A stretch of DNA of 48,867 nt, from IMG/VR virus record IMGVR_UViG_3300021376_005073, positions 1 to 48,867 of that record. One strand, written 5' to 3'. Below are positions 3,741 through 24,037 of this stretch, piece after piece (the first letter of the stretch is position 1; each line of letters opens with the position of its first letter). The notes under the pieces were generated by a model. That model was given only the letters and a program-made list of their open reading frames with translations. It ran no database searches and was not told the DNA's origin. The DNA comes from a virus. Both the position numbers and the translations under genes were made by a program.

Positions 3741-3743
3741 GGA

Positions 3744-5206: not shown

Positions 5207-8200
5207 CTACTCCGTCGGGGCGGAAGGTGCGCCGTCTGTGAAGTTGTCCGTCCTGCGGAACCACTTCTCGAATTCTTCGGCATCTAGCCCGAGCCTCTCC
5301 ACCATTTCCCTGACCTTGGCCATGGGGAGAAGCACCGACCCCTTCCCGCCGAGCCTGTCGGGTTTTATCCTTAGACGAGCACCCCTGCCCGCACGTCCGA
5401 GGGCCTCCTCGATGGATCTGATGGATCTTCCCTCTTCAAACAGCCCCATTTCGATCAGGGCATCCCTAATCTTCTTCGCGGAACTCCCGCCCAATTCCCT
5501 GAATCCAGGCCACTGGCCGAACTCGCCGTCGGAAATCGCATCCCGTCGCGCGAGGTCACTCTCTTTGAGTATTTTCTTATCGACCAATTCTCTGGCGTAT
5601 CGGTTTGGCAGGTATCCCGCTCTTTGCATTTGCCTGTAACGCTCCTCACTCCAGGGTGTCCCCTTGTCGTTGACGAACGGAAGGCCAGAGGCCCTGACGT
5701 TCCGCATCATCGCACCAGCGCTCAGTGCATTTCCGTTGTCGTCGGTGAGCCTGACCCTTACCCCCGTATTCTCGAACAACTTGTCCTCGAATTCGCGCAG
5801 GCTCATTTCCCCGACTGGTCGGGATGGTTCGGCCGCATCCCGGCGCCTCTCGATGATGTCCCTTTTGCCGGCGCGACCAGCCCGAGCCGCCAGTCTCGCC
5901 GTACGGCGGGCCCTTTCTGCGTCAACGGCGGCATCAATCTCATCCGGGCGATCCACCATTGCACCCGTGTCGTCAAAGTAAGCGAGCGGGTCAAATCCGA
6001 ACAGCCCCTCTCGCTGACCCGTACCAAATCCCAGTTCCAGGGCAATCTTCTCCGCCAAGGACGGGTCATCTATGAAAAACTCCGGGGAACCCTTGCGTCT
6101 GGAGTCAAACAAACGCCTCACCGATTCCTCGTCTAGGCCGACCCTGGAGTCGGGGCCGAAACGTTCCATGAAGTCATCAATGGTTAACGGATAGAACAGG
6201 ACTTCCTCTTCCAAGGTGAACCCGCCGTTTCCGTCGGGTACTTCCACATTGTGGTAGAGCGGCGTGTCCGAGACCAAGGCATCCCATTTTTGTCTTTTAC
6301 CCGATGCGGTTATGCGTTCAAGTTTCTCTCTGTAGTTATCCCACATCTTGTTCAGGGATATGTCCTTGCCCGGCCCGTGCTCGCCGCCCTCGAACACCTT
6401 CGTGGGGTTCACCGGCATTTCGGAATCCCTCTCGGTATCCGCCATCGATGCGAAGCCGTCCCACTCCGATGCGTCTGGGCCGCCGCGGCGCTTGCCCGGT
6501 CGCTTGCGCGACCTCAGTACGTTCCTGTCCGCGATGTTCTGCCTGTCCTCTTCGGAGTAGCGAGTCTTCGGCGCCATGCCCTCGCGCCTCTTGCCCTGGT
6601 TGCGGCGACCGGGGCGGCGGCGACGCCCGCGCGAGGCGAAGCCGTCGCCTTCCAAGGGGCGCGAGGCATTCGCTTTCCTCTCGTCCAGTTCCGCCGTCAA
6701 CCGCTCGACGCGGCGTTTTTCAAACTCGTAGCCGAACAGGCCCTCTTCAATCCAGTCGGCAGAAGGTGGCGTTTTCCAAATTTCCGAATCTGGGTCATCA
6801 AAGAATGTAGTCAAACTGTCCGAGAGCAGATTGTCTGGGACGGACGGAGCATCGTAATCATTGAATGCCTCATCCTCCCTGTACCTCCTCTCGAAGGAGT
6901 CGGGCAATTCTGACACCATGTTGTCCAGATCATCCAGTACGTCGTCGACACCGGATTCGGTTGTGGCTTCTTTGAGTCTCTGCCGAAGTCCATCCAGCTT
7001 TGCCATGTCTACATCCCTCACGTATGTTCCGTGTTCGAGCGTTTCGGATTCCATCCCGTCATAGCTGTCGCCGCTGCTCTCCCCCTCGAAGAAGTCCTCG
7101 ACTTCGTCGATCAGGAGGTCGTAATCCTCCCTCTTGGCATTGATGAATTCCTCATCCGAATCCCACGAGCTACGCCTTTCGCTTGACCCAGCGCGCACCC
7201 TCTTGGCGAGTTCCTGTGCTTCGCCGAGGGCATTCGCCGAGGCATTCATCTTCGCCTCCGCGACAGACTTGTCAGTCTTATACCTGTCAAGCAAGGAGTC
7301 GACAGTATCTATGGCCCTGTCGTACTCATCGAGGAGATCTTGGTCATCCTCGTCTGGCGAGACGTCGTAGATGCTTCGCACCTTCTTGGGGGCAACCCCA
7401 TTCGCGCGCGCCATCTCGCGGGCGGCCTGATTGCGGGCATTGATGAGTCGTTCGCGATAGTCCACTGCCTCTGAGGCATTCATTCGATTTACCGTGCTGT
7501 CCAGCCTTTCAATTTTCCCGAATTCGCGCCTCATGTCATCCGTGCTACGGCGACGGCCGCGCGAGGCGAAGCCATCGTCGTAGAGCATCATGTCGGCCAG
7601 CGCATCGCTTCGACCCCTCCAATCGAGGTAGTCCTTCTGTAGCTGTCGGGCGTACGAGGTGGCCTCGCGCTTGCCCATGCGCTGCCGCTTCATCTCCTTG
7701 GCGATGAGCTCATCCAAGTCCATCGTTCCATCTTCTTCAAAACTTTCGCCGTAGACGCTGCTGAGATACTGCTCCAGGTCCAGGAGTTTTTCCCTCTCCG
7801 CGTTTACGTCAGACGAATAATCATCGTCGTCCCTGTCGAGTGCGTAGTCAAAGCCACTGCGCGAGGCGAGCCCTTCGTACGCAGAGTCGGGCAACTTGCG
7901 GCTCGTGGTGAACTCGTAGTTGTCCCTGACCTCGCGCATCGTCGCGCCGCGGCTGTCCGACGCCTCGATTCTGTCGACCACGTCCGGCTCGACGCCGTCG
8001 TAGGTGTAGACCGTGCCGGTCCCCTTGCCGTCGCGTCCTCGGTACTCGACCGAGAGCCTGCGGTTCATCTCGTCGTACTCGACGGAGTTGAGGGCGGAAC
8101 TGGACGAGACGTCGATCTTGCGCGGCTTGGACGACTGGCCCATCCCGACGGCCTCTCGCTCGAGTTCGGCTATTCGCCTGTCGTCCATCGCCAGCTTCCT

Positions 8201-11200
8201 GGCCTCGTCGAGAATCTGCTCGGTCGTCATCCCGGAGTCGCGGTTGTTCGCCAGCGCCCTCTGGAAGTACATGTTCTGGTCGGCGGAACTGAGGCGGGTG
8301 AAATTGTCAACTGCTCTCTGCGCATTCAGGGCGTCCATGTCGGCGCCGAAGTCGGTATCCTCGCTCGGGCTGAACTTGTCGAGGGAGAAGTTCTTCCTCA
8401 CTCCCTCCGCATCCTCCCCGACCATGTTGAAGCGGCCGGGCACCTTCGGGTTCTGCCAAATCTCAACGGGGGTGAGCTCGCGCTCCTTGCCGTTGTACGA
8501 GAACTTGACCTTCTTGCCGTCCTTCATCGCCTCGCGTATCGCGCCGATGAGGCCGTTCGTGTCGCCGCCCCTCGCCCGGTCGATGACGTCCCTGCCGAGG
8601 GAGACCGGTTGCGGGAGCGTGGTGCGAGAGGCGAGTCCTTCGCCCGGCATTCGTCTTCCCGTGTCCCCGATCGGCGGCAGGCCATCAATCTCTCGCTCGA
8701 TGTTCATCAACTTGCGCTGCGCATCCTCGATGCGCTTTTCCATGTCGTCGTAGGCGCGGCGCTCCATCGGGTTGTCGCGGTCGAGTATCTGCTGATCCTG
8801 GATCATGCTGCGTATCTCCGCGCGCTGCTCGGTCGCCGCCCTCCTCAGGCTCGTCTTGGTCGGTGCGCCGGCGGCGCGCGAGGCGAAGCCGTCGGAACCC
8901 CCGCGGACCGGTTTGCCTCTCGAGAACGTTGCACTGTCCCTGTTCCACCTGTATGTTGTGTCTTTGCCGCGTCCATAATCTGGGTAACGTGCGGTTCCCT
9001 CGTTTAGGTCTTGGAACTCGAAAACTTTGTCGACTTCTTTTTGGATTTGTCTCCAAAGTGCATTTTCTTCCTCTTGGCTAAGAGTGCCATCGCCCCTGTC
9101 CCCCCTGGCTACGTCGCTCAATTGACCCACAAACGCTTCGGGATTGTCTTTCCACCCATACATTCCCATGAGAATGTCGTTAGCAAGTTTCTTTCCAGCT
9201 TCTTGTCTTCGCCGTGCATCGCCTTCATCTTCGCCCGCATCGGTTCCGTCGATCAGGTGCGCGTCATAGAGGGCTGCCAATAGGGCTTGCTTGACGTTTC
9301 TCAATGCCGCCCTATGGGTGTTTATCTCTTTCTCGAGGCGCTTTATCAGTTCGGCATCATCTGGGTCGTCAATATCCGGAAGCATGCCTGCATTGTCCGG
9401 CGTAACTGGGTAAATTTGCTGACCCCCCGCTTCGGCCATTTCGCTGGCGATCAGGTTCCGGAGTGACTCCAATGCCTCCACGTCGTCCACCATCTTCGCA
9501 ATACCCTCTGATGAGGGGACCAAAGAATCGAGCTCGCTGGAACTTAGCCTGTCTACGCTACTTTTTTCTGCAAATTCGCGCACCCTGAGCGATGGACCGT
9601 GCTCTGTGATGGCGTCAGTCACTTCTTCTTCGTACTGCCAAGTGCTGAACCTTCCGGCGCGCGAGGCGAAGCCGTCGGAATCCCTGTTGAGTCTTTCCGC
9701 TCGCTTCCTGACCCCATCCACGATGCTTTGTGCCGAGGCGAGTTCAGAGGAGGAAACGTAATCCGTGTTCTTGATTAGTTCTTCTGCGGTGATGAGGCTG
9801 CCGTATCTCTGGAATCGATTATCGTCATCGACACCTTGGCGAATCAGGCGGTCTATTTGCTTAAGCAACGATTCGGCTGCTTTGGCTCTGGCTGCCTTGG
9901 CATCATTGTTCCATTGATCAATTGCCAAGTCTCTCTCTTCTTCTAGATCAATGTCCGGCTGGGCCACCCTGTCAATGTTGTCAATGCTGTCTTGGATGAT
10001 TTGGTCTTGTACTTCCCAATCCAGCTCATCGAAGTCCATCCACTCGGATTGGATTACCAGTGCCCTTTCTCCGCTCGAGGCGAAGCCGAGATCGTCTTCG
10101 GGATCGAACCCCGGGTCGTCGCTCGGAATTCCACCGTCTTCACCGGTGCCGAAGTCGTCGCCGGCGAGGCCGTCGAAATCCATGAGGCGCCACTCGTTGG
10201 CGTAGTCGTCAATCGCCCTCTCGCGGGCGTCGGCATCGTTCCTGCCGCCCGCCTCTGCGACCCTTCTCTCCTGCTCATCAATCGGCAGGTTGTCAAAAGC
10301 CGCCCTGTCGGCCTCCGAGACTTCCGGGGTCGGGTCGTCAAAATCGTCGTCATCGCCGCGCGAGGCGAAGCCGTCGTCGGTGAATGGGACTCCGCGCTCG
10401 CGCGTGCCTTCGAGCTTCTGGATGCGCCTTATCGCCGCCCCGAGGAAGTCGGTCGTACCGATAACCTCGTAAATTTGACCGTACCCGCCACCATCCGGTG
10501 CTCCGTCGTAGTCGCCGCTCAATTCGACGATTGCGTATCTCTTGTCCCTGGTGGGAACTATGTACCGAACCTTTGCCCCGTCGGCACCTTCGGTGCCAAG
10601 GGCGGCACTGCTGATCTCATCATCGGTATCCGGCGCGAACACGAGAATTCGGTCGAAGATTTCGCCGATGTATTCATCGCTTTCGCCCTCGTTGAACACC
10701 CCGGCGGCAACCATGTCCCGCTCGAATCTCCTCGCTGCCCCGGTATCCTCGAGGTTGACTATCTCAAGCGGTGTCTGAAGTTGCGCGGATTCGTACGAAT
10801 AGTTGCTGGCGAGTTCCTGCTCCCTGATTTCGCCAAGGCGCTGTCCGCGCGAGGCGAAGCCGTCCCTGCCCATCTTCTCCTTGAGTCGCTTGTTGAGTTC
10901 CGCCTTTATCGCTCGCGCCTTCGGTCCCCTGTATGTCTGCAGGTTGCCGAGCGCGTAGGCGACGATGCTCTGCCCGGAATCCTCGCCGAAGCGGTCGTCT
11001 ATGGAATCCATGGTCGACATCGCGTCGATGTACGGAACGGCCCCGAAGTACATTTCCTTGCCCTGCTCGGCGAGGTCCCTCCGGATCATTCGCGCCAGTT
11101 CGCCGAGCGTCGCCCCCTCGATGCGCTTCTGTGTTTCGGCATCGACGGATGGCTTCGTTGACGAACCGCGCGAGGAGAAGCCGTACTTGCCGGAACCCTC

Positions 11201-14200
11201 TAGGTCGCTCAGGTAATCCTCGTAGGCTTTTTCTGCGGCGAGGGAGAACGCACGACCCACGTCACCCTCCGTGTTGCCGATCGCCGCCTCGAAATAATCA
11301 TCCCAGAGGGCATCGCTTCGTTCCCAGTAGTCGGCGATTCGTTCTGCCTCGTCTCGGTCGATATCGCGGAAATCTTCCAAATCGTTGATCAAGTCTTCTT
11401 TGGTGAAACCGCCGTACCATTTGTACTCTGCAGGGACAAGGGAGTCGTCGCCGCGCGATGCGAAGCCGTCGCCTTCGTCACCGAAACGGCGAGGATAATC
11501 GCCGGATCTTCGATCGGCAGCAAAGTGCTTCTTGATTCCCTCTCGCGCCTTGTCCAAGGTGTCGTGGGTGGCGACGACTTCGGTGTTCACGCTTCGACTC
11601 CCGACCAGACGCCCGTAGTCGTTGTAATCGCCGTCAACATCGCCGTGGACCTTGACGACTGCGAAGCGGCCGTCGGGGGTTTTCACGATATACATGGCGT
11701 GTCTGTCAATGTCGTCGGGATCTCCTATGTAGAGGATGTCGTAGGGTCGGGCATTTTGCGCTATGTACACTTCCTTCAGTTCTCCGCCGTCAACCCGCTC
11801 AAGTATCGCATCCACGACACTTTCATCGTCGCTGACGCCGTTCAACTCATCCAGTGCGTCATAGCTGTCGTAGGCTGTCGCTGGGGTGCTGAGTAGGCCG
11901 ACGTTGGCACCGCGCATTGCGAAACCGTCGTCGCCCTCAGGCTCGCGTGAGTCGTCTATGCGACGGACGAAATCCTTCGCTTCTTCGAGGGTGTCGAATG
12001 TTTCGTCAAAGTACTCTTCGTCGTAGTCGGTGCCGCCGTCCCTTTGGTAACTGTAACCGTGGGCCGCATCGACTCCGAATTTTCCATCCTCATCTCGGGT
12101 GATCGTGTAGATGGAGTCGCCACGGCGTGCCCTCGGGTTGTTCCCGACCGCATTCCATGTGCCGCTACCTCGTTTTGTCTCTTCCCAATCAAGTTCACGG
12201 CCGCGCGAGGCGAAGCCGTCAGACCCGCCAGCGGCCCTGCGCATATACCGCTCATGTTCGGCCGTGACCCTTTCCAACAACGGGGTTCCCGGACCCAAGT
12301 CCTGACGCTTTCTCCTGAACTTGTCGTTCGTCGCAGTGAGCCGGTATCCCGAACCCGAATTCAGCTTTTCTTCAACGGCTTCACGAGCAATGTCGCGCGC
12401 CCGTCCGTAATCGCGAACACCTCGCTCGATGATGGATGTCTGGGTTCTGCTTTGATTCCCGGTGCGATCCAAGACATCAGCGTCCTCTAGTTTCCCCCAT
12501 TCTTTGACGACGTCGTATCTGCCGTCGTTCTTGACGATCATCACGTTCCACTGTTTGTAGTTGCCCACCCGGCCGCGGTCACCGGTGCTCGGTGCGAGCA
12601 ACTGCCAGGCATTGATGGAATCGTATTGATTCTCTACTTCTGGGAGATCGTCTGTTTCGTCGTACACACTTCCTTTGCCTTTTTCGTGCATGGCCCGTGC
12701 TCGTTGTCGGGCGTTCGCGCTGACCTCGCGGGGTGTCAAGGGGAATGAGCCATATCCTCCAGATGCGAAGCCGTCGGAGCCCTCCAGGTCGCTGAGGTAA
12801 TCCTCGTAGGCTCTGTCTGCGGCAAGGGAGAACGCCCTTAATACGTCACCCTCCGTGTCGCCGATTGCCGTCTCAAAATACTCATCCCAAAGGGCATCGT
12901 TTTGCTCCCAGTAGTCAGCAATTCGTTCTGCTTCGTCTTGGTCACGATTGCGATCAAGTTCCAAACCATCAAGCAATTCTTCTTTGGAGAAATTGCCGTA
13001 GCGTTCAATCCCGTATCCGACGTACCGTTCTGGGGCAAGATTCCTGCTGGGGTCGTAACCGCGCGATGCGAAGCCGTCGCCGTCCGTGGCGTCGGATCCT
13101 GCTCGATTCCATTGTTCCTCGGTCAGTCCGAAGTTCTCTAGGTAGTGCTCCCTGTGGGCTCGATCTACGTCTTCGCGGGAATCGCCAGGTCCACCGAAGA
13201 GCCGGCCTTCCTCCACCAGCATCCCTTTTATGTCCTTGTAACCTGCGACATCCTGAGACTCGAGCGCGGCATCTGCTTCTTCGTACAACTTTGCCACGTA
13301 ATCCTCGTACGAGGACTCCTCACCCCTCGGGTAGCCCGTGTAGTAGCCATCTTCACCACGGTCGCCTGAGTATGAACCCCTGACCATCTTGAGCGCATCG
13401 GCGAGGCTGCCGATTCGCGTGAAGTCCTTCCTGGCTTTGCCACCCTCCTCTTCGGGGTGGGTTATTTCCCTGACCGCGCGACCCATGCTTTCGGCATCAA
13501 CCAAGTTGGTCATATCTGCCTTCAGCACGTCCTCGTAGTGGTAGATGCTGCCGTTCTTGAACATGACCATTACTTCGTTGTCAAAGTAGCCGATTTCTGT
13601 TCGACCGGGTTTGCCAGATTGACTGCTCCTCTTTATCCACACTCTCTTGACGGCGGAACTGTCGCCCACGCCGATTTCGGCCCATTCACCCTTGGGCAAG
13701 AAGTTGAGCAACCAGTCGTTTTTGGCTCGGACGCCTTTGGAGTTCGGGCGCGAACCCCAGTGGACGGCGGTCGGAACCATGTTTCCGTTACCGTCATCCA
13801 TCATTACGATTTCTTCGCCGAGGTTCTGGTTTACCCTGCTTTCCATGTCGTCGCGAATTTTTCGGGCTCTCGGATCTGGCCTATATGGATCATCAACGTC
13901 CCCGCTGCCCATGTACGGGTAATCTCCGTAATCGTAATTCTGCATTCCGGCGCCTCGGCGCCGCGTGGTCGATCCGCGCGAGGCGAAGCCGTCGCCGTCA
14001 CGAGCCATCCTTGCCTCGGCCTCGCCAACGAAGCGGTTGTCAAGGGCTGACTCAAGGTTGAGGAGTGCGGCCCGATCCTCCATGAGTTCACCAATGCGAG
14101 AGTTCACATCCTGTCCGTAGGTGTCCTCAAATGAGAGTTCCTGGCGTGGGCTCAGTGATTCAAGTCGCCTCATCTCTTTTTCTACTGAGTCAATTTCTGT

Positions 14201-17200
14201 CCCAACTGCTGAGAGCATTTCCCGAGCTTCCGACCTACTCAGTGTGTTGGCGAAAGCGGTCGAGGCTTCCCTGTCGGATGCTTCGTCATCGCCCCACGAG
14301 TATCTGGAGTAGTTTGCTTCTGGATCGGTTCCGCGACTGCGCCTGCCATCTCCGTAAGGATTGTCAATGTACTGCGAAATCCTGTCGCGTATGCTGCCGC
14401 TGCCGCCGCGCGAGGCGAGACCTGCTTCACGATTCTTTTCATCTGAACCGAGGCCGTACACGCGCTTGTCGTAGTCGGTCATTCCCCTGCCCTCGCCGCG
14501 CAGGTTCGGGCCTTCGTCGGAGACGACGTTGTGTCCCTGTCGGCCGGCGTAGGAGCGGGCGCGGATGTAGCCGCGCTTCCTACCAGTTGGCGACTGGCCC
14601 TGCTTCCTACCCTCGTACCAATTCGCAGAACTGCTCGTCAATTCAATTTCGTTGGCATGGAGCAACTCGCCCGTTTCGGCATCGCGAACTGCAATCGTGT
14701 CTGGACCGCGTCTCTTACCCTTTCGCGGACCCTTGGTGTATGTACCGACACCCCTTGCTGCTCGCAGTGCATCAACGGTCGTACCATTGCCTTCTGCTTC
14801 GATTATTTCGTCAAGTGCACCCTGCTCCATGGTGATAGTGACATTCCGGTTGCGGACTCGCTTGCCACCGCGGGGCGGCCTGCGCGTTGGCATCTTCGGC
14901 TTGGCGACTGGTGCCGGGTCAATTTCGGTTGTCGTATCTTCGTCAAGGTTCCCGACCCCGCGAAGTATTCCCTCAAACGACTCAAGGTGATCGCTTGCGG
15001 GCACGGAACGGGCAGCCTCCTGTTCGTACTTTGCACCGTTTGTTCTGTTTGTGGCCAACAAGCCCCTGTAGTTGCCGTCGTCGTCGCTCAAGACCAGAAT
15101 GTCAAAGTCCCCCTTTGACCATTTGCCACCCTCGCCCTTTGACCAACCAGCACTTGCCATATCTGGTTCGCCCTTGGCCTTGGTTGGCACCTTGCGAACA
15201 TCGTGGGTGCGCTTCACGTCGTTGATTGCGCGACCCTTGCTCGGCGCCGAACGGACCGCATCCGCCTCCTCGCGCGTAACGCCCGAGTAGATGTAGCCCT
15301 TGCCGCCGGAGTAGACGACGGTGAGTTCTTCCTTGTCCGGGTCGTAGGTGACCTTCTCGACCGCCTCCGAACCGCGGACGTCGAATTCCTCGATGCCCCC
15401 GTCTTCGTCTCTGCCGCCGGCCCACTCCCCGTCCTTGCGGTACGGGTGCGCTCGCTTGATGTCGTTCATCGCGCGGCCCCTGCTCGGGGAGCCCTTGAAG
15501 CCCTCGAACGTGTCCCTGTCCACGCCCTCGTAGATGTACGTGCCGCCGTCCTTGTACGTGACGCGGAGTTCCTGCGTGGACGGGTTGTAATCGACGGCGT
15601 CCAGCGCCGACGAGTAGGTCACATCGACGGACTCGACCCCCGGTGCGTCGCCGGCCATGTCGAGCTCGCGCCTCGCCTCGTCCAGTTCCCGCTCGACGCG
15701 CGCCTCCGCATCGTCGTCTGCCTCTCTTGCGAGCAGGCGACTCTTTATTTCCTCGACGGCATCCGGAAGGTTGTCAAATCGCGCCGAGTATCCGTCTTCC
15801 CACATTCCTGGGGTTTCACTATCGCCACGATCCCAGTACTCAGGTGTGACCACATACTCACGGGCATCGGGATCGTACTCAACCCTGAACCGCGACTCAT
15901 TCTCTCTCCTGCCAACAAGGAGTTGCGGAAGGCCGTCGGGGGCCTCATCGTCGTACTCGACTCTCGTTCTCGGTGGGTCGTACAGGCCGACGAGAGAGGA
16001 GGCCAATTCGTCCAATTTCTTCCGACGCAATTTATCCTTGTTTTCCGCTGCCTGCCTCGCCTCGCCCTTGTCCGCGTCGGAAAGTCCCACGATCTCCTCT
16101 GGGGTGGCCTTGCGCACGTTCTTGCGGCGCTTGATGTCGTTTATCGCCCTGCCGACGCTCTCTGCATTCTCGACGCCGATTGCGTCGTCCATGCTGACGC
16201 CCTCGTAGACGTACATGTCCCCGCGACCGTCCTCGCGCTTGTAGGCGACGAACAGGCTCTCGCTCTCCGGGTCGTACGAGACGTAGTCGACGGCTTGACT
16301 CGGCTTGATGCCGAGGCGCCTGGTCCGTCTGCCAACGGAGGCGAATCCGTCTTGGTCGCCGTACTGCGCCCGCCGCGCCATGTGGGCGTCCGACATGCGC
16401 GCGTACGCCTGCTCCGCGTAGTTGAGGAGATCCATGTCCGGCCTTGTGCTCAATCTCCTGCCGTTGGCGAGATCCGCAAGGTTGTGACCCATCTCGTTCT
16501 GGTCGAGGTAATCGCCCAGCATCGAGTTGACCCAATCAATTTGGTCGTCCTCCGAGAGGCTCGCAAAGTCGAGGTTCTGCGCGAGGATGCGCTCCTGTGT
16601 CTGGTTGACCCAGTCCCTGTCCTGGTAGCGCGGCTCGACCCCGATTCTCTTCCCCGGTGTGCGGGGCTTCAGCGGCCCGCCGCGCGAGGCGAAGCCGTCC
16701 TCTCCAGCGAACACAAGGTTTCTTTCGGCCATTCTGTCGAGGAAGTTTTTCTTTGCCTCGGTTGGCGAACCACCAACAAGGGTGATTTGCATTCGCCTCG
16801 TTCCGCGGTCCTCCTCGCCTGCGCCGCGCCCGCCCGTGACCATGGCAGAGACGGTTATGTAACCAGTTCCTCTTTCCCTCTGGACCGACATTGGGGTGGT
16901 GTTGGAGCGCGGAACGCGACGTGGCCTTGACGAGCTCGAGGCGAAGCCGTCGCCCAATCCACGCCCAGGACGGTAATCGTTCACCATGTTGACTAGGTCG
17001 GCGATTGCCTGTCTCTGGGTGCTCCTCGTCGAGGGTTTCTCTAGATAGAGATTGGCGAGTTTCCTAATCGCCCTACTCTCTTGTGTCGTGAGTTCTTTGT
17101 CAGAGCCGAAGCGCACCTTGTCAAGACCACTCATTGCGTCCCTGTATTCACGGCTAGAGAATTCCTCAGATAGGAAATCCCTGTTCCCTCGTCGCATCAA

Positions 17201-20200
17201 CCAGATTCCATCGTCTATGAAGATGCCACTAGAAGCGAACCCGTCGGCAGGCTTCGCCTTGGCCACGTCCTGTATCCGCTCGTCCCTTCCGAAGAAGTTG
17301 AAGTTGTCCTCGTCGGTCGCCTTGCGAGCCCTCTTGAGTTTCTTGAGGGCGTTGATGTGCTTGCCCTTGCTCTTTACGGCGGCGAGTTCCTGGACTTCCT
17401 CCATGCTGACATCCGAGTAGACGTACCAGCCGATGTCGCGCGAGTCCTCGTACAGTTCCTTGGCGCGGTCGTCGATTTCCGTGTCCGACAATGGACGCTC
17501 GTAACCGCCCTGACCGCGTCTCGCACTGGCGCGATCAATCCAGTTCTCGCGCTCTTCGTCGCCGAGGTCGTCCCACGACTTGCCCTTCAGGAAGCCGACC
17601 ATGAGCTCGCGGCTGTTGTCGTCGTAGAGGATCCCGCCGAGCGCCGACGATCCCGGCGTGCGGACCCTGTGCAGCGATGCGAACCCGTCGCTCGCCCCGA
17701 CGAGCGCCTCGGCCTTGTCCGGCGCGTCGACCTCCGGTGCCCTCTTCCCAGTGTCAATGCCGCCGAACAGCTTGCGCAGGTTCGGGGACTTCTCGAGCAT
17801 GAAGTTGACGGCCGCCTGCGCATCCTTGAACGCCCTGTTGAGGGCGTCGGGGTCGTCCTTCAGGAGCTGTATCCAGCCCTTGATGTACGGCGCGTGATCC
17901 TGCCGGAACGGTGCCTCTATGCCGTGGGCCGCGAGCACCATCGCCGATCCGATTTCGGCGACGAGTTCCTCGTACGCCCTCACCTTCTTGTCTGACGAGT
18001 ACTCCGCGAGGCTGGCGCGCTTGAGGCGCGAACTGTGCCCCGTCCAGTGGACCGCCTCGTGCGCGAGCGTCGATGTCCACTCGAGCGCGCTCGTCCCCTT
18101 CGCGAAGTCGGGCATCGAGATGTAGTCGCCGTCGGGGCTGTAGTGGGGCGTCATGTCCGCCGTCTGGACGGTGACGCCTAGTTCCTTCAGGGTCTCGTCG
18201 AGTATCGCGATTCTCTCCGACTCTGGGAGGTCGGCGGGGATCGCCCTCAGCGCCTCGTCGCCGCCGTCGGTCTGGTCGACGTTGAATACGGTCGCGCCGC
18301 GGAAGACCACGAACTCCTTGAGGTTGCCGTCTTCGTCTTCCTTCTTGACGAGTTGCGGACGGAGAATCGGGATGCCCTTCTCTCCCTTGCGGACGATCGC
18401 GCCTCGCGCCTTGAGTTGGTTGAAGCCGGCGAACCTTCCGGTGTTGTACTTCCTGTCGGCGGCGGCGAGCATGAGGAAGAACGCATTCATTCCCCTGTAC
18501 GGCTTGCCGGTGGTCGGGTTGATCGGCAGCGAATCGCTGCGCCATGACGGCTTCCATGTCGATGGGTCGGCGGTCTCGAGTTCGGCGATGAGCCTGTCTT
18601 TGACGCCACTTACAAGTTCGTCAAGCTTGGATTGCTTTACTTCTTCGTCGTTGCCGCGGCTGGCGAAACCGAACGGCTCGTCCCAGCCTTCCTCGTCGTC
18701 GTCCGGAACATCAAAGCCCCACATCTTCCAGTACTTCTCAAGTATGGAATCAAATACCTTCGCCGCCGCACTATCTTCTGGCTTGGATCCGAACTCCCCC
18801 TCACCGCGCGAGCCGAAGCCGTCGGAGCCCTCCAGGTCGCTGAGGTAATCCTCGTAGGCTTTTTCTGCGGCACGAGGGAATGCACGATTTACGTCACCCT
18901 CCTCGTCGCTAATTGCCTCCTCAAAATACTTGTCCCAAAGGGCGTCGCTTTGCTCCCAGTAGTCGGCGATTCGTTCTGCTTCGTCTCGGCTGTGATTCCG
19001 ATAATCTTCCAAACCATCAACCAAATCGTCGTAGGAGAAATTGCCGTATCGGGCATACTCCTTGGGAGCAAGATCTGCGGTGGGGTCGTCACCGCGCGAG
19101 CCAAAGCCGCTTGCCTCCTCGGCATCTGCCTCGGCGCGCGCACGATCAGCATCATTCATAAACTCGTACGGGTCGGCGTCCTCGAACGCTTCTTGAACTA
19201 CTTCATCAAGGAGATCGGGGTTGTTGAGAAGGTCGTTCTCGTCGTATTCAGAAAGAAATCTGTCTCTTTCCTCCTGCGACAGGCGCGACCAGTTGATGTA
19301 CGGTCTGTCGTCCGAATCCGGATCAAAGTCAAGCATTGACAAGTCGCCCTTGCGGAACTTGTCCAGCCTCTTCTTGTTCGCTTCGGCCAACTTGCGCGCG
19401 GCGTTCCTCTGCTCCGTCCTCGCCTTCCTGATCTTGGCGTTGCGCTCGTCGCGCGCCTTCAGGAGGGCGCCGACGTACTCCCCGACGTTCGGATCCTCGG
19501 CGGTGAGCAGTCTCGCCTTCCCGGCATCATCCAGTTGCTCCCATGCCTCGACGGCATCGCGCGCTTTCTCCTTGGACGAGTTGGACGGTTCCCTGTTGCC
19601 CCTCCACCCGTCGCGCCTCGCGACCTCGAGCATTATCTCGGTGTTGCTGAATGGCCTTTCGCTGCCGCCGCTCGAGGCGAAACCCTCGTCGTCCTCGCCG
19701 TACTTCTCGATGTACTTCTCGAGCGCATTGTCCAGCGCGGCATCTGCCTGCTCGTCAAGTGCTCTCTCGCGCTCGCGCGAAGCAAGTTCTTCGGCGTCCG
19801 GCTCTTCCTCTGTTATGTCTGGCTTGGCTGGCTTTGGCTTGTCAGTTGCATCCGGCTTGGCCCGATCCGGCTTGGCTGCATCTGGCTTGTCAGCCTCTGG
19901 CTTGTCAACCTCTGGAACCATTGCCTCTGGCACTTCACGCTTTGCTGGCGGAACAAATTCTTGACCGAAGGTTTCTGCATACGAGGCTCGCCTCTGGAAG
20001 TCGTGCGAGACCTTCAGCAACTCCTCGTCGATGCGCTCCTTCTCCGCGCCGGTCGCCTGCCTCCTGGCGTTTACGAGCCTGTTGCCTTCCTTGGTGAGGT
20101 CGGCCTCCGACATGTCCCAGTACTTCGCCAGACCCTCGTTGTCGGGGCGTCGGTTTGCGAGGTAGGCGACGTCCTCCCTCGTCTCCGGCTCGATGGTGCC

Positions 20201-21691
20201 GGCGGTAAGCGCCTCATTGCGCTGAGCGCGAGTCCATGTTTTCCTGTCCTTCGGCAACTTCGGAGCGGAGCGCGGCTTGTCGAGCAGCGCATCGCCGCTT
20301 CGCTTGCGACCACGGACATCCGGCAAATCAAAGCCGGGCTTCTTGATCGGAATGTACGGTCGCATGAATGCGCTGCCGTCCTGCACGAAACCGTCGCCGT
20401 CGCCGTCAAGCGCATACGGGTTGAACGTCTGGGCGAGGTCGCGAATCTTTCCGATTGCCTGACCGATGTTCCCGCCGGCCTGACCGATCGTCGCGCCGAG
20501 CGCCTTGACCGCGTTCTGGAGGGCGTCAAGCGCGTTCGCCGTGAGCAGACCGTCGATGATTATTCCCTTGGTGCTCGGCTTCGCCTTGAGCCTGTGGTGC
20601 CGCAGGACCGGCGAGAGGAAGTCCCTCGCGCTCTGCATGTACACGTCCGGCATCTCGATCAGGTGCGATATGCCCGACTTGCCCCACGGCGATTCGACAG
20701 ATTCGCCGCCGCCGAACATGCCCATCATCTCCATCTGGTCGTCGGTGCGGTAGGCGATGCCGCCGTTCGGTACCACGACCGGCGCGCCTGGTTTCTGCTC
20801 AATGTTCTGAGTCGCCTGCGGTGCCGTCGGCGCGGATGCGTACGGCTCCGGCTTGCCGAACATGTACTGGTTGCCCTCGCGGTGGTACGGGAGCCTGTAC
20901 ATCGACGCCTTGCCGTCCTGTGTCGTGCGCCTGAACACGACGCTGTTCTCCGTCGCATTCATGACTTCTATCTTCGATCCTGTGCGCTCGGCGAGTTCCG
21001 CCTGCAACGCCGCCTTGTCCGGCTGCGAGAGTTCCTGCGACATTCCCTGTGCGAACGGGTCGCCCTCGCTGGATCCGTCGGCGCCTTCCTGCGGCGCGGC
21101 GATGACGACGATCCTCGGGATCTGCGGCATCATCGGCATTCCCATCCCTTGCATCGGGATGACCGGCATGCCGCCTTTCTCGTCCGCCTTTATCGAGATT
21201 GTCCCGGTGAGCTGGTTCGCTCCGTGCAGGACCGGCGAGACTTCGTAGAGTTCGACTTCCTTGAGGATGTTCGCCTGCAGGTTCGGGTCGAACACCGAGT
21301 CGATCGTCTTGTAGCCGATCGACCATTCCTGCTCCTCGCCGAAGAAGGCGACGGTAGCGAAGGCTTCCTTGCCCTTCTCGGAGTTCAGGTTGAATTGGAC
21401 CTTCGCGTAGAGGCCGCCGATGCCGGCGTTGCGCATCTTTGAGGGGAGGCGCGAGTCGCCGACGGGCACCTCGTACATCTCCAGCACCTTGCCGATCGGG
21501 TCATTCCACGAGTGCCCCCACACGACTCGCGGCTTGCGGTGAGTCAGGCTCTTGGCGAACGCGCCGCTGATGACGACGTCGCCCACGGAATCCTTGTTGC
21601 CGATTCCGGCGACGAAGCACTCGACTATCCCCTGCGCCTCGTCTATGTTGACGTTGCCAGAGTTACCAGACTTGAAGAGAAGATTGTCCAT
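5207..21691 (-). CDS. Giant prohead-protease polyprotein, 5494 aa, with 27 GFASRG-type motifs
   Basis: One uninterrupted frame of 5494 codons starts with ATG just after the portal gene. The N-terminus is an HK97-type prohead protease (S78/U35 family); such enzymes are usually about 200 residues, so this protein is some 25-fold longer. After residue 670 the chain is divided by 27 copies of a G-(F/L)-(A/S/G)-(S/M)-x-x motif into segments of 50-642 residues. Recognisable segments are an ArdC-like anti-restriction domain with zincin motif, six KTSC domains, a WYL-like domain, three near-identical 90-residue modules and an Arg-rich peptide. The mix matches the polyvalent proteins described in phages and conjugative elements, which enter the host with DNA. 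I infer a self-processing cargo polyprotein packed in the prohead. The alternative is one enormous repetitive structural protein whose motifs are only linkers. Confidence 0.93.
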   Translation of the reverse strand: MDNLLFKSGNSGNVNIDEAQGIVECFVAGIGNKDSVGDVVISGAFAKSLTHRKPRVVWGHSWNDPIGKVLEMYEVPVGDSRLPSKMRNAGIGGLYAKVQFNLNSEKGKEAFATVAFFGEEQEWSIGYKTIDSVFDPNLQANILKEVELYEVSPVLHGANQLTGTISIKADEKGGMPVIPMQGMGMPMMPQIPRIVVIAAPQEGADGSSEGDPFAQGMSQELSQPDKAALQAELAERTGSKIEVMNATENSVVFRRTTQDGKASMYRLPYHREGNQYMFGKPEPYASAPTAPQATQNIEQKPGAPVVVPNGGIAYRTDDQMEMMGMFGGGESVESPWGKSGISHLIEMPDVYMQSARDFLSPVLRHHRLKAKPSTKGIIIDGLLTANALDALQNAVKALGATIGQAGGNIGQAIGKIRDLAQTFNPYALDGDGDGFVQDGSAFMRPYIPIKKPGFDLPDVRGRKRSGDALLDKPRSAPKLPKDRKTWTRAQRNEALTAGTIEPETREDVAYLANRRPDNEGLAKYWDMSEADLTKEGNRLVNARRQATGAEKERIDEELLKVSHDFQRRASYAETFGQEFVPPAKREVPEAMVPEVDKPEADKPDAAKPDRAKPDATDKPKPAKPDITEEEPDAEELASRERERALDEQADAALDNALEKYIEKYGEDDEGFASSGGSERPFSNTEIMLEVARRDGWRGNREPSNSSKEKARDAVEAWEQLDDAGKARLLTAEDPNVGEYVGALLKARDERNAKIRKARTEQRNAARKLAEANKKRLDKFRKGDLSMLDFDPDSDDRPYINWSRLSQEERDRFLSEYDENDLLNNPDLLDEVVQEAFEDADPYEFMNDADRARAEADAEEASGFGSRGDDPTADLAPKEYARYGNFSYDDLVDGLEDYRNHSRDEAERIADYWEQSDALWDKYFEEAISDEEGDVNRAFPRAAEKAYEDYLSDLEGSDGFGSRGEGEFGSKPEDSAAAKVFDSILEKYWKMWGFDVPDDDEEGWDEPFGFASRGNDEEVKQSKLDELVSGVKDRLIAELETADPSTWKPSWRSDSLPINPTTGKPYRGMNAFFLMLAAADRKYNTGRFAGFNQLKARGAIVRKGEKGIPILRPQLVKKEDEDGNLKEFVVFRGATVFNVDQTDGGDEALRAIPADLPESERIAILDETLKELGVTVQTADMTPHYSPDGDYISMPDFAKGTSALEWTSTLAHEAVHWTGHSSRLKRASLAEYSSDKKVRAYEELVAEIGSAMVLAAHGIEAPFRQDHAPYIKGWIQLLKDDPDALNRAFKDAQAAVNFMLEKSPNLRKLFGGIDTGKRAPEVDAPDKAEALVGASDGFASLHRVRTPGSSALGGILYDDNSRELMVGFLKGKSWDDLGDEERENWIDRASARRGQGGYERPLSDTEIDDRAKELYEDSRDIGWYVYSDVSMEEVQELAAVKSKGKHINALKKLKRARKATDEDNFNFFGRDERIQDVAKAKPADGFASSGIFIDDGIWLMRRGNRDFLSEEFSSREYRDAMSGLDKVRFGSDKELTTQESRAIRKLANLYLEKPSTRSTQRQAIADLVNMVNDYRPGRGLGDGFASSSSRPRRVPRSNTTPMSVQRERGTGYITVSAMVTGGRGAGEEDRGTRRMQITLVGGSPTEAKKNFLDRMAERNLVFAGEDGFASRGGPLKPRTPGKRIGVEPRYQDRDWVNQTQERILAQNLDFASLSEDDQIDWVNSMLGDYLDQNEMGHNLADLANGRRLSTRPDMDLLNYAEQAYARMSDAHMARRAQYGDQDGFASVGRRTRRLGIKPSQAVDYVSYDPESESLFVAYKREDGRGDMYVYEGVSMDDAIGVENAESVGRAINDIKRRKNVRKATPEEIVGLSDADKGEARQAAENKDKLRRKKLDELASSLVGLYDPPRTRVEYDDEAPDGLPQLLVGRRENESRFRVEYDPDAREYVVTPEYWDRGDSETPGMWEDGYSARFDNLPDAVEEIKSRLLAREADDDAEARVERELDEARRELDMAGDAPGVESVDVTYSSALDAVDYNPSTQELRVTYKDGGTYIYEGVDRDTFEGFKGSPSRGRAMNDIKRAHPYRKDGEWAGGRDEDGGIEEFDVRGSEAVEKVTYDPDKEELTVVYSGGKGYIYSGVTREEADAVRSAPSKGRAINDVKRTHDVRKVPTKAKGEPDMASAGWSKGEGGKWSKGDFDILVLSDDDGNYRGLLATNRTNGAKYEQEAARSVPASDHLESFEGILRGVGNLDEDTTTEIDPAPVAKPKMPTRRPPRGGKRVRNRNVTITMEQGALDEIIEAEGNGTTVDALRAARGVGTYTKGPRKGKRRGPDTIAVRDAETGELLHANEIELTSSSANWYEGRKQGQSPTGRKRGYIRARSYAGRQGHNVVSDEGPNLRGEGRGMTDYDKRVYGLGSDEKNREAGLASRGGSGSIRDRISQYIDNPYGDGRRSRGTDPEANYSRYSWGDDEASDREASTAFANTLSRSEAREMLSAVGTEIDSVEKEMRRLESLSPRQELSFEDTYGQDVNSRIGELMEDRAALLNLESALDNRFVGEAEARMARDGDGFASRGSTTRRRGAGMQNYDYGDYPYMGSGDVDDPYRPDPRARKIRDDMESRVNQNLGEEIVMMDDGNGNMVPTAVHWGSRPNSKGVRAKNDWLLNFLPKGEWAEIGVGDSSAVKRVWIKRSSQSGKPGRTEIGYFDNEVMVMFKNGSIYHYEDVLKADMTNLVDAESMGRAVREITHPEEEGGKARKDFTRIGSLADALKMVRGSYSGDRGEDGYYTGYPRGEESSYEDYVAKLYEEADAALESQDVAGYKDIKGMLVEEGRLFGGPGDSREDVDRAHREHYLENFGLTEEQWNRAGSDATDGDGFASRGYDPSRNLAPERYVGYGIERYGNFSKEELLDGLELDRNRDQDEAERIADYWEQNDALWDEYFETAIGDTEGDVLRAFSLAADRAYEDYLSDLEGSDGFASGGYGSFPLTPREVSANARQRARAMHEKGKGSVYDETDDLPEVENQYDSINAWQLLAPSTGDRGRVGNYKQWNVMIVKNDGRYDVVKEWGKLEDADVLDRTGNQSRTQTSIIERGVRDYGRARDIAREAVEEKLNSGSGYRLTATNDKFRRKRQDLGPGTPLLERVTAEHERYMRRAAGGSDGFASRGRELDWEETKRGSGTWNAVGNNPRARRGDSIYTITRDEDGKFGVDAAHGYSYQRDGGTDYDEEYFDETFDTLEEAKDFVRRIDDSREPEGDDGFAMRGANVGLLSTPATAYDSYDALDELNGVSDDESVVDAILERVDGGELKEVYIAQNARPYDILYIGDPDDIDRHAMYIVKTPDGRFAVVKVHGDVDGDYNDYGRLVGSRSVNTEVVATHDTLDKAREGIKKHFAADRRSGDYPRRFGDEGDGFASRGDDSLVPAEYKWYGGFTKEDLINDLEDFRDIDRDEAERIADYWERSDALWDDYFEAAIGNTEGDVGRAFSLAAEKAYEDYLSDLEGSGKYGFSSRGSSTKPSVDAETQKRIEGATLGELARMIRRDLAEQGKEMYFGAVPYIDAMSTMDSIDDRFGEDSGQSIVAYALGNLQTYRGPKARAIKAELNKRLKEKMGRDGFASRGQRLGEIREQELASNYSYESAQLQTPLEIVNLEDTGAARRFERDMVAAGVFNEGESDEYIGEIFDRILVFAPDTDDEISSAALGTEGADGAKVRYIVPTRDKRYAIVELSGDYDGAPDGGGYGQIYEVIGTTDFLGAAIRRIQKLEGTRERGVPFTDDGFASRGDDDDFDDPTPEVSEADRAAFDNLPIDEQERRVAEAGGRNDADARERAIDDYANEWRLMDFDGLAGDDFGTGEDGGIPSDDPGFDPEDDLGFASSGERALVIQSEWMDFDELDWEVQDQIIQDSIDNIDRVAQPDIDLEEERDLAIDQWNNDAKAARAKAAESLLKQIDRLIRQGVDDDNRFQRYGSLITAEELIKNTDYVSSSELASAQSIVDGVRKRAERLNRDSDGFASRAGRFSTWQYEEEVTDAITEHGPSLRVREFAEKSSVDRLSSSELDSLVPSSEGIAKMVDDVEALESLRNLIASEMAEAGGQQIYPVTPDNAGMLPDIDDPDDAELIKRLEKEINTHRAALRNVKQALLAALYDAHLIDGTDAGEDEGDARRRQEAGKKLANDILMGMYGWKDNPEAFVGQLSDVARGDRGDGTLSQEEENALWRQIQKEVDKVFEFQDLNEGTARYPDYGRGKDTTYRWNRDSATFSRGKPVRGGSDGFASRAAGAPTKTSLRRAATEQRAEIRSMIQDQQILDRDNPMERRAYDDMEKRIEDAQRKLMNIEREIDGLPPIGDTGRRMPGEGLASRTTLPQPVSLGRDVIDRARGGDTNGLIGAIREAMKDGKKVKFSYNGKERELTPVEIWQNPKVPGRFNMVGEDAEGVRKNFSLDKFSPSEDTDFGADMDALNAQRAVDNFTRLSSADQNMYFQRALANNRDSGMTTEQILDEARKLAMDDRRIAELEREAVGMGQSSKPRKIDVSSSSALNSVEYDEMNRRLSVEYRGRDGKGTGTVYTYDGVEPDVVDRIEASDSRGATMREVRDNYEFTTSRKLPDSAYEGLASRSGFDYALDRDDDDYSSDVNAEREKLLDLEQYLSSVYGESFEEDGTMDLDELIAKEMKRQRMGKREATSYARQLQKDYLDWRGRSDALADMMLYDDGFASRGRRRSTDDMRREFGKIERLDSTVNRMNASEAVDYRERLINARNQAAREMARANGVAPKKVRSIYDVSPDEDDQDLLDEYDRAIDTVDSLLDRYKTDKSVAEAKMNASANALGEAQELAKRVRAGSSERRSSWDSDEEFINAKREDYDLLIDEVEDFFEGESSGDSYDGMESETLEHGTYVRDVDMAKLDGLRQRLKEATTESGVDDVLDDLDNMVSELPDSFERRYREDEAFNDYDAPSVPDNLLSDSLTTFFDDPDSEIWKTPPSADWIEEGLFGYEFEKRRVERLTAELDERKANASRPLEGDGFASRGRRRRPGRRNQGKRREGMAPKTRYSEEDRQNIADRNVLRSRKRPGKRRGGPDASEWDGFASMADTERDSEMPVNPTKVFEGGEHGPGKDISLNKMWDNYREKLERITASGKRQKWDALVSDTPLYHNVEVPDGNGGFTLEEEVLFYPLTIDDFMERFGPDSRVGLDEESVRRLFDSRRKGSPEFFIDDPSLAEKIALELGFGTGQREGLFGFDPLAYFDDTGAMVDRPDEIDAAVDAERARRTARLAARAGRAGKRDIIERRRDAAEPSRPVGEMSLREFEDKLFENTGVRVRLTDDNGNALSAGAMMRNVRASGLPFVNDKGTPWSEERYRQMQRAGYLPNRYARELVDKKILKESDLARRDAISDGEFGQWPGFRELGGSSAKKIRDALIEMGLFEEGRSIRSIEEALGRAGRGARLRIKPDRLGGKGSVLLPMAKVREMVERLGLDAEEFEKWFRRTDNFTDGAPSAPTE
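5210..6439 (-). other. C-terminal segment of the giant protein (residues 5085-5494)
   Basis: This is the last and second-longest motif-free part after segment 1 and the three-KTSC segment. It contains a Trp/Tyr-rich N-terminal part, an Arg/Ala-rich helix (about 5275-5310) and a compact C-terminal half with VRVRLTDDNGNALSAG, a TPWSEERYRQMQRAGYLP block and a final LLPMAKVREMVERLGL helix. I recognise no family. It is the only segment bounded by the motif on one side only. Confidence 0.5.
6458..6625 (-). other. Arg-rich basic peptide segment (residues 5023-5078)
   Basis: About 56 residues lie between the motifs at 5017 and 5079. They are dominated by Arg, Lys and Gly (RRRRPGRRNQGKRR at the start, RSRKRPGKRRGG near the end). 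This composition is typical of nucleic-acid-binding or DNA-condensing peptides. If released in the capsid it could neutralise packaged DNA; that role is inferred from composition. Confidence 0.6.
7874..8620 (-). other. WYL-like domain followed by KTSC domain (residues 4358-4606)
   Basis: The first ~75 residues read as a small beta barrel of WYL type: I..A...GKKVKFSYNGKERELTPVEIW, a G/V strand pair, then KNFSLDKF, matching the usual v.f.Y.g..R...P pattern and the closing F.ldri element. WYL domains are ligand- or nucleic-acid-binding modules, often in phage-defence regulators. A KTSC domain follows (about 4524-4597) with SSSALNSVEYD and YTYDGV. The WYL call rests on pattern only. Confidence 0.55.
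10373..12754 (-). repeat. Family of beta-rich mini-domain segments (residues 2980-3158, 3165-3255, 3262-3408, 3617-3773)
   Basis: Four segments in this span share one layout: a strand ending in I/V, a charged turn with DGR(Y/F) or DGKF, a second strand such as YDVVKEWG, FGVDAAHG, FAVVKVHG or YAIVELSG, an Asp/Gly/Tyr-rich loop, then a helix such as TLDKAREGI or TLEEAKDFV. Segments 3262-3408 and 3617-3773 are the closest pair (KTPDGRFAVVKVHGD versus PTRDKRYAIVELSGD). I infer duplication and divergence of one small domain of unknown function. A DYWEQ-type module (copy 3) and an unrelated segment (3510-3610) are interspersed. Confidence 0.6.
11183..11449 (-). repeat. DEAERIADYWE module, copy 3 (residues 3415-3503)
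   Basis: Third copy, with DEAERIADYWERSDALWDDYFE, EGDVGRAF and AYEDYLSDLEGSG. It ends in the variant motif GFSSRG. Plus-strand 11185-11234 closely matches the equivalent parts of copies 1 and 2. Confidence 0.85.
12773..13057 (-). repeat. DEAERIADYWE module, copy 2 (residues 2879-2973)
   Basis: Second copy, slightly longer at its N-terminus (an extra GIERYGNF element), with DEAERIADYWEQNDALWD, EGDVLRAF and AYEDYLSDLEGSDGF. The plus-strand DNA at 12776-12825 differs from 18823-18872 at only a few positions. Copy 2 is more than 5 kb away from copy 1, so the duplication moved across other segments. Confidence 0.85.
13076..13972 (-). other. Segment with KTSC-like domain (residues 2574-2872)
   Basis: It starts with a basic and Tyr/Asp-rich region. 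A KTSC-like domain at about 2668-2750 has GDSSAVKRVW, a beta hairpin with MVMFKNGSIYHYEDV (YxY present) and an ESMGRAVREI helix. The C-terminal ~110 residues are acidic and helical with a DYV.KLYEEADAAL block. No enzyme motif is visible. Confidence 0.65.
14423..16330 (-). other. Longest internal segment: three KTSC domains plus basic C-terminal region (residues 1788-2423)
   Basis: This 636-residue stretch has no GFAS-type motif. KTSC copies lie at about 1788-1862 (YVYEGV), 2010-2087 (YIYEGV) and 2100-2167 (YIYSGV), each ending in an (A)NDIKR or (I)NDVKR helix with RK. A WSKG-containing beta-rich part follows, then a highly basic Gly/Lys/Arg region (about 2235-2400) with TYTKGPRKGKRRGP-like composition that could bind nucleic acid. 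Between the first two KTSC copies is an unassigned ~130-residue region with a beta-rich pattern. If motifs are cleavage sites, this would be released as one three-KTSC protein. Confidence 0.75.
17243..17668 (-). other. KTSC domain split by an insertion (residues 1342-1483)
   Basis: An SSALGGILYDD...LMVGF start is separated by about 50 residues from a YVYSDV block and SKGKHINALKK...RKAT end. Both halves match a KTSC domain, in which a beta hairpin with a YxY motif is followed by a basic helix. KTSC is a ~60-residue domain found on some lysyl-tRNA synthetases and as stand-alone bacterial and phage proteins; RNA binding has been suggested but not shown. The insertion contains a charged helical stretch and makes this the most divergent copy. 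Confidence 0.65.
17687..18652 (-). other. ArdC-like anti-restriction segment with zincin-like metallopeptidase (residues 1014-1335)
   Basis: This segment lies between the motifs at 1008 and 1336. The N-terminal half matches the ArdC ssDNA-binding region, with conserved-looking blocks W.P.W, NP.TGKPYRG.N.F.L and GFNQLKA.GA.VRKGEKG. The second half is a polyvalent-protein zincin: HEAVHWTGH beginning at residue 1211, then RL, then a downstream EELVAEIG carrying the expected third zinc ligand. ArdC proteins are known from conjugative plasmids and phages, where they protect incoming DNA from restriction. Its placement in a protease-headed polyprotein suggests release and injection with the genome; that step is inference. 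Confidence 0.88.
18821..19090 (-). repeat. DEAERIADYWE module, copy 1 (residues 868-957)
   Basis: First of three ~90-residue modules, each flanked by the short motif on both sides. Shared blocks are YGNF, DEAERIADYWEQSDALWD.YFE, EGDV.RAF..AA and AYEDYLSDLEGS. The DNA near the C-terminal end of the module is almost identical to copies 2 and 3, which indicates recent duplication. It is predicted helical and acidic. I do not recognise a known family. Confidence 0.85.
19685..21166 (-). other. Linker region of segment 1 with calcium-loop-like DGDGDG motif (residues 176-669)
   Basis: This part follows the protease and precedes the first GFAS-type motif at residue 670. It has a Met/Pro/Gly-rich stretch (about 175-195), an Ala/Gln-rich region, a Gly/Ala helical stretch (about 390-420) and an aspartate-rich loop DGDGDGFVQDGS at residues 429-440 that resembles a calcium-binding EF-hand or dockerin loop. 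A Pro/Lys/Asp repeat region follows around residues 590-630 with recurring KPD/KPE units. I recognise no catalytic domain. It may act as the protease's own delta-like or scaffold-binding part; that is inference. Confidence 0.6.
21167..21691 (-). other. HK97-type prohead maturation protease domain (residues 1-175 of the giant protein)
   Basis: Features typical of the caudoviral prohead serine protease family are present: GDVV..GAF..SL at residues 37-49, the catalytic-His context VVWGH at 56-60 followed by PIG, the catalytic-Ser context EWSIGY at 122-127 (Ser124), and LYEVSPVL..AN at 148-159. In HK97-like phages this enzyme digests the scaffold or delta domain and itself inside the prohead. Its gene normally lies right after portal, as here. 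All expected catalytic-region residues look intact, so I infer an active protease. Confidence 0.92.
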
Positions 21692-21708
21692 CGCCCTGCC
21701 TTGTTGGT

Positions 21709-21755
21709 GTTGCGCTCAGCAATGATAAACCACCATTTATTGGGTTTGGCGCAAC
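21709..21755 (-). promoter_or_regulatory. Nested inverted repeat in the leader of the giant gene
   Basis: Between the portal stop and the giant-gene start is a 93-base, comparatively AT-rich gap. It contains GTTGCGC (21709-21715) pairing with GCGCAAC (21749-21755) and, inside it, AAACC (21727-21731) pairing with GGTTT (21743-21747). The RNA could fold into a two-part stem with an asymmetric internal loop just upstream of the start codon. It lacks the U-run of a classical terminator. It may regulate the ratio of portal to polyprotein; function is inferred. Confidence 0.4.
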
Positions 21756-21784
21756 TACCAATATCAATTCAGTAATCAGACCTG

Positions 21785-23797: not shown

Positions 23798-23800
23798 CTA

Positions 23801-23971
23801 TTACTCGAGTCCTAGCAAGAATCCAAGGATCCCACAGCACAGGCCTGCGACGATTAATCCAGCGGGAGGAAAAATGAGGGCAGTTCCTACTGCGGTCAGG
23901 ACCACGAATGAAACCATTAGAATGTTAGCAACATTTGAACGGCTGGAAAGGAACACCTTTACTCTGTTCAT
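23801..23971 (-). CDS. Small two-helix membrane protein (56 aa)
   Basis: ATG at 23971 has GGGGGTG five bases upstream; TAA is at 23801-23803. The product begins MNRVKVFLSSRSNVANILMV and then has two hydrophobic stretches, about residues 16-34 and 36-54, separated only by a Pro-Pro-Ala-Gly turn, ending FLLGLE. It is first in the leftward operon, three bases before the portal start. A holin-like or virion membrane role is possible, but two short helices alone do not decide it. No lysis enzyme gene is adjacent. Confidence 0.75.
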   Translation of the reverse strand: MNRVKVFLSSRSNVANILMVSFVVLTAVGTALIFPPAGLIVAGLCCGILGFLLGLE

Positions 23972-24037
23972 GTTCACCCCCGTTTGTCCTTGTACATTTT
24001 ACGATACGGGCAAGCATAGTTGAGACAGGAAGTTCGG
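23972..24037. promoter_or_regulatory. Divergent intergenic region between leftward head genes and rightward terL
   Basis: These 66 bases separate the two divergent transcription units and include the ribosome binding sites of both first genes. Promoters for both directions should lie here or just inside the flanking genes. The stretch is AT-richer than its surroundings (TTGTACATTTTACGATA), but I could not pick convincing -35/-10 pairs. Confidence 0.3.

Follow-up and report, generated by a model that had tools for sequence, protein, structure and literature searches.

A tag-segmented giant open reading frame with an S78 protease domain and an embedded ArdC homologue in an uncultured phage

The giant open reading frame and its neighbours

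The window, meaning the whole stretch of DNA that was analysed, is the virus record IMGVR_UViG_3300021376_005073 at its length of 48,867 nt (48.9 kb), which is probably a fragment. A portal gene (21785-23797) adjoins a giant open reading frame fused to an S78 protease domain, followed in gene order by an acidic scaffold-like gene and a large protein truncated by the contig end. The features are:

5207..21691, minus strand: polyprotein-like open reading frame of 5494 aa, G[FL][AGS]S present 27 times at spacings of 11-631 aa
21200..21640, minus strand: Peptidase_S78 prohead protease domain, residues 18-164 (Pfam E = 3.8e-11)
3744..5162, minus strand: acidic, scaffold-like protein (sequence judged by eye)
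3..3740, minus strand: large neighbouring protein, cut by the contig end; two motif copies (residues 235 and 1038), KTSC domain, HEGAHVKQ zincin site

Shuffling the 5494-aa frame 1000 times gave on average 0.83 occurrences of G[FL][AGS]S and never more than 5, against the 27 observed. As read from its sequence, the giant consists of an S78 prohead protease domain followed by approximately 28 units separated by a short tag, which is GFAS-RG in the window lineage. The S78 domain scored 43.8 bits (Pfam cut-off 21), and H60, S124 and H156, assumed by analogy to be catalytic, were invariant in 23 sequences. Its AlphaFold2 model was of low confidence (mean pLDDT 64.5) and gave no Foldseek match below 0.001, with herpesvirus proteases appearing only at E ~3. 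The C-terminus of the scaffold-like protein, compared by eye, resembles the C-terminal part of the capsid protease protein of Gordonia phage DalanDe. The domains are of the mix seen in polyvalent proteins: S78, ArdcN, MPTase and KTSC in the window, and UvrD, RNase T and sigma-r4 in relatives. KTSC was matched five times in the giant (13075-17686 and 5207-9673) and once more in the neighbouring protein. Elsewhere in the window, a PAPS-reductase-like protein (SGGKDS motif) lies between ParB-like proteins at 29093-31483 (by eye), a group that is possibly a DNA-modification or sulfur-transfer set.

Units of the giant recur as whole blocks. Three are paralogous to one another, with 66-69% identity over nearly the whole motif-to-motif length:

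18821..19108, minus strand: paralogous unit 1, residues 862-957, motif-bounded; 68-69% identical to units 2 and 3 along its full motif-to-motif length
12773..13075, minus strand: paralogous unit 2, residues 2873-2973, motif-bounded
11183..11467, minus strand: paralogous unit 3, residues 3409-3503, motif-bounded

Several window units have counterparts elsewhere in the chain of the related record G001, and the unit at residues 1484-1581 was found there at 3720-3815. Over five orthologous giants, the four motif positions were 0.68-0.89 identical, against ~0.45 for the flanks. Because motif copies differ in codons among relatives (17 distinct DNA words for 18 copies in G023, and 10 for 10 in G020), selection acts on the protein and not on the codons. 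A DNA element or recent duplication was considered as the origin of the motif and rejected as a general cause, since the relatives' copies use different codons. Within the window, 11 of the 20 GFAS copies have one common DNA word, which suggests some recent duplication.

The ArdC cassette

On translation of the minus strand, positions 17687-18652 correspond exactly to residues 1014-1335 of the giant, where the preliminary description had placed an ArdC-like unit with an ssDNA-binding part and a zincin site, bounded on both sides by the motif. That placement was borne out by Pfam matches to ArdcN (E = 1.9e-22) and MPTase-PolyVal (E = 1e-31), by the presence of both HEAVHWTGH and EELVAEIG, and by GFASRG upstream and GFAS downstream. 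The elements of the cassette are:

17687..18652, minus strand: ArdC cassette, giant residues 1014-1335 (Pfam, PDB alignment, Foldseek)
18284..18607, minus strand: ArdC-N (ssDNA-binding-type) domain (PF08401 match)
17831..18202, minus strand: MPTase-PolyVal zincin domain with HEAVHWTGH and EELVAE (PF18818 match)
18653..18670, minus strand: upstream boundary motif GFASRG, residues 1008-1013, in predicted disorder (pLDDT <50)
17675..17686, minus strand: downstream boundary motif GFAS, residues 1336-1339, in predicted disorder; kept in orthologues

Residues 12-294 of the 322 in the segment align with residues 8-293 of the R388 ArdC structures (PDB 6sna/6i89, E ~1e-52), and the best Foldseek match of its predicted model (moderate confidence) was 6i89 (E = 2.4e-19). 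By alignment, residues 1014-1335 are thus a complete ArdC homologue, equal to free-standing ArdC. HExxHWTG and EEL[VI]AE, which hold the metal ligands including the downstream Glu, were invariant in 11 of 11 aligned ArdC units. The computed mass of residues 1014-1335 is 35.4 kDa, or 36.0 kDa if the chain is cut before the motif Ser.

Both boundary motifs lie inside stretches of predicted disorder in the structure model (residues 1-57 and 351-414, that is, giant residues 960-1016 and 1310-1373). The downstream GFAS is followed by LH and not by RG, a GFASLH variant that G001, G004, G005 and G007, all orthologues, retain. When motif positions in the window giant were rotated, 2.2% of rotations placed a motif within 50 aa on each side of the ArdC block with none inside; in three further lineages or clades the same pattern arose in 2.1-2.2% of rotations each.

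Relatives were collected by a scan of IMG/VR, which gave 473 loci encoding S78 relatives, of which 80 were kept and only some were tagged; the related records are fragments or of unproven completeness, and all tag-bearing phages found are uncultured. Of 30 related records, 14 had an MPTase match, never more than one each, and wherever this could be checked it lay in the open frame of the S78-fused giant. The position of the ArdC unit in the chain varies: one clade has it towards the N-terminus, others towards the C-terminus. In 12 inspected giants it is bounded by the motif of its own lineage, one case (G023) having LSSG in front and the C-terminus of the chain behind. GFAS-, GFGS- or LGSR-type motifs sit 156-164 aa before and ~42-48 aa after the MPTase match in the inspected giants. 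There is good reason to read these units as released by cleavage.

Iyer et al. propose that MPTase autoproteolysis frees ArdC-N in polyvalent proteins (PMC5512222), and the metal-site residues are intact here; even so, it is highly improbable that the ArdC zincin processes the polyprotein and frees ArdC-N, as the tags bound ArdC-N and MPTase jointly with none between the two, and the zincin is disfavoured as motif reader because the motif system occurs in six records that have no MPTase match (G015, G018, G019, G020, G022 and G024, all fragments).

Tags across lineages and proteins

S78 is fused to a long chain with a repeated tag in many IMG/VR relatives. The tag is GFAS-RG, LGSRS, [LF]SSG, GLSSG or GLAS[TS] depending on the lineage, and STRS where S78 is unfused. 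With tag definitions fixed per lineage after the sequences had been inspected, GFAS was found 22 times in non-giant proteins of its own class, where shuffles average 2.6, and 4 times in other classes; GLAS 20 times in non-giant proteins of its own genome (shuffle mean 1.3); and STRS 37 times in five G022 proteins including the tape measure (shuffle mean 0.65) against 2 in 17 other genomes combined. Because the definitions are post hoc the exact counts vary with them; the difference from shuffles and from other lineages holds regardless. Outside the giant, the LGSR, [LF]SSG and FAST classes are backed by a smaller number of copies than GFAS, GLAS and STRS. At the level of sequence, the tag thus changes with the lineage in several proteins of one genome.

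In the window, the tape-measure-like protein carries two copies:

36893..36904, plus strand: motif GLAS, residue 45 of the tape-measure-like protein (ORF 36761-41731)
38699..38710, plus strand: motif GFAS, residue 647 of the same protein

In the tape measures of the window clade, G023 and G022, the lineage's own tag occupies two sites, at about residues 39-59 and 624-682; the tape measure of G016 has no tag at either. The S78 protein of G022 is separate (460 aa) and the motif system is still there, so fusion to S78 is unnecessary for it. The same record encodes four STRS-tagged giants at 6451-24467 (L189, L190), two with pentapeptide repeats, one of which also has a Zeta-toxin-like kinase domain. 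Five cultured actinophages whose portal and S78 genes are homologous lack the repeated motif, and two matching Gammaproteobacteria MAG contigs encode short S78 proteins with no tag repeats.

The tags fall between recognised domains. Among 19 proteins, none of 284 motifs fell inside a recognised domain (rotation mean 37.6, minimum 21, 2000 rotations), and since proteins of one clade are related and these counts are non-independent, a non-redundant set was used as a check, in which none of 143 motifs did so (mean 18.9, minimum 8, 5000 rotations). UvrD units in two lineages and the RNase T unit of G023 are motif-bounded in the same way as ArdC. The S78-fused giants of G023 (L168) and G020 (L170) embed between them a helicase of UvrD type, an exonuclease of RNase T type and segments like sigma-70 region 4, with the helicase and the exonuclease as separate tag-bounded units.

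The large tag-bearing proteins also have, at roughly one copy each, a second element, F[DN]PxAxDGDGDGxVQ[DE]G[ST]xFxRPA. It lies at 20375-20407 in the window (giant residues 429-439) and also in G001 (93698-103156), G016 (102525-110606), G018, G015 and G008, and may serve in recruitment or bind calcium.

Proposed processing, candidate proteases and known systems

Proteolytic processing at the tag is likely from these sequence patterns. Under the proposed mechanism, the tag would be a processing site, probably cut beside its invariant Ser by a protease of the phage while the head assembles. The S78 domain would most likely be that protease, working in cis as well as in trans. The freed ~36-kDa ArdC would stay in the virion alongside the DNA, enter the host with it, and shield it from restriction by binding DNA and not by proteolysis. 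HK97 is cut at K103/S104 (PMC10275583); the invariant Ser of all the tags agrees with this cut as an analogy only. R388 ArdC with the metal-ligand mutation E229A retains function, and its role in conjugation is independent of the metalloprotease (PMC7213743). DNA binding is therefore, by analogy, the likelier protective activity, and a mutant of HEAVH would not be decisive for ArdC function because the R388 mutant stays functional.

The model as a whole, in which a phage protease processes the polyprotein at its tags and frees an ArdC that is kept in the virion, enters the host with the DNA and protects it, is judged slightly on the probable side. An even balance is struck for its extension to a large uncultured tailed-phage group with true polyproteins, in which dozens of exchangeable cassettes (ArdC, UvrD helicase, RNase T, pentapeptide repeats and others) would be joined by a processing tag evolving jointly over a genome's substrates, and would be released into the virion for co-injection by a phage protease that is often fused to them. 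The identity of the protease, and packaging, injection and anti-restriction, are steps that we infer with uncertainty from the sequences.

S78 is the first candidate for the motif protease, and the choice between it and the zincin of the neighbouring protein is uncertain from sequence. Three observations count against S78 as cutter. The motif was looked for in the major capsid proteins of ten relatives and was absent (the window's own is off-contig); the S78 domain is 69-96% identical between records with different motifs; and the tape measure, a tail protein normally outside the prohead, is tagged. In the preliminary description the unit was a releasable segment cut out by the prohead protease. 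The full ArdC homologue and the flanking motifs as cassette boundaries stand across many lineages; the prohead protease as cutter faces this contrary evidence and a rival zincin.

That rival would have the neighbouring protein (window 3-3740; HExxHxxQ ... E) cut the tags and S78 mature the capsid only. The site, HEGAHVKQ at residue 504 in the window, has HExxHxxQ counterparts in 14 of 14 records examined (the window and 13 others), the protein is itself lineage-tagged in several genomes, and major capsid proteins without the motif fit a separate motif reader. The neighbouring zincin diverges fast, and as its region is 15-51% identical in the less close record pairs against 69-84% for S78, its specificity could drift with the motif. 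The divergence does not run parallel to motif class (0.33 for G008, GFAS, with G016, LGSR, against 0.25 for G000 with G011, both GFAS-type), the protein has no known protease activity and Pfam assigns it to no peptidase family, and the neighbouring zincin as cutter is regarded as rather unlikely.

The tag could also stay uncut and serve for docking or packaging in flexible linkers, the giant being one intact polyvalent head protein like the vRNAP of phage N4, which is packaged unprocessed (PMC5512222). Tags in disordered linkers fit docking too, and the tagged tape measure counts for it. Docking would not, however, need tags confined to unit borders, absent from unit interiors and marking off units as long as free-standing proteins, and F[DN]PxAxDGDGDGxVQ[DE]G, at about one copy per protein, fits recruitment better than the tag does. 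An uncut docking tag is accordingly thought improbable.

If the tags of the favoured processing model are cut, they would amount to a polyprotein strategy in tailed dsDNA phages by which one gene sends in several early effectors, made beforehand, together with the genome. In that case the cargo of many uncultured phages, unknown anti-defence proteins among it, could be read simply from the tags, whose switches between lineages would be a natural experiment on the co-evolution of protease and substrate. No such phage polyprotein was reported in the titles of the open-licence literature searched.

Among known systems, the polyvalent proteins of Iyer et al. 2017 (PMC5512222) are likewise multidomain, combine ArdC-N and MPTase with other counter-defence domains, and are thought to enter with DNA. 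They have 2 to 15 domains, whereas the window giant has ~28 tag-delimited units fused to a prohead protease and a lineage-specific tag common to other large proteins of its genome. R388 ArdC (6i89, 6sna; PMC7213743) shares the domains, length, zinc site and fold of the window unit, but is a free-standing plasmid protein needed in the recipient cell, in contrast to a unit embedded in a phage giant. Phages of Gordonia, Brevibacterium and Streptomyces (DalanDe, GMA6, Cantare, Gilgamesh) have a homologous S78 protease and portal, yet their S78 is at most 41% identical to that of the window and they have no repeated tag.

The Dar system of P1 (DarA, Hdf, DdrB and others) consists of anti-restriction proteins in the head, as the freed ArdC would be under the proposed mechanism. 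The prohead protease trims its DarA, which leaves the head together with the DNA (PMC12810830), but the Dar proteins come from separate genes, DarA sheds an N-terminal fragment, and there is no cassette polyprotein. In SPN3US, the prohead protease gp245 cuts many head proteins at one motif, AXE (PMC10052503); its major capsid protein is cut at that motif and mostly N-terminal propeptides are removed, whereas the major capsid proteins of window relatives are tagless. Processing of the T4/SPN3US type is alike in that one motif is common to several proteins of one genome, and differs in that the ten relatives' major capsid proteins do not share it. P1 DarA and the SPN3US ejection proteins set a precedent for head proteins that are processed and then enter the host.
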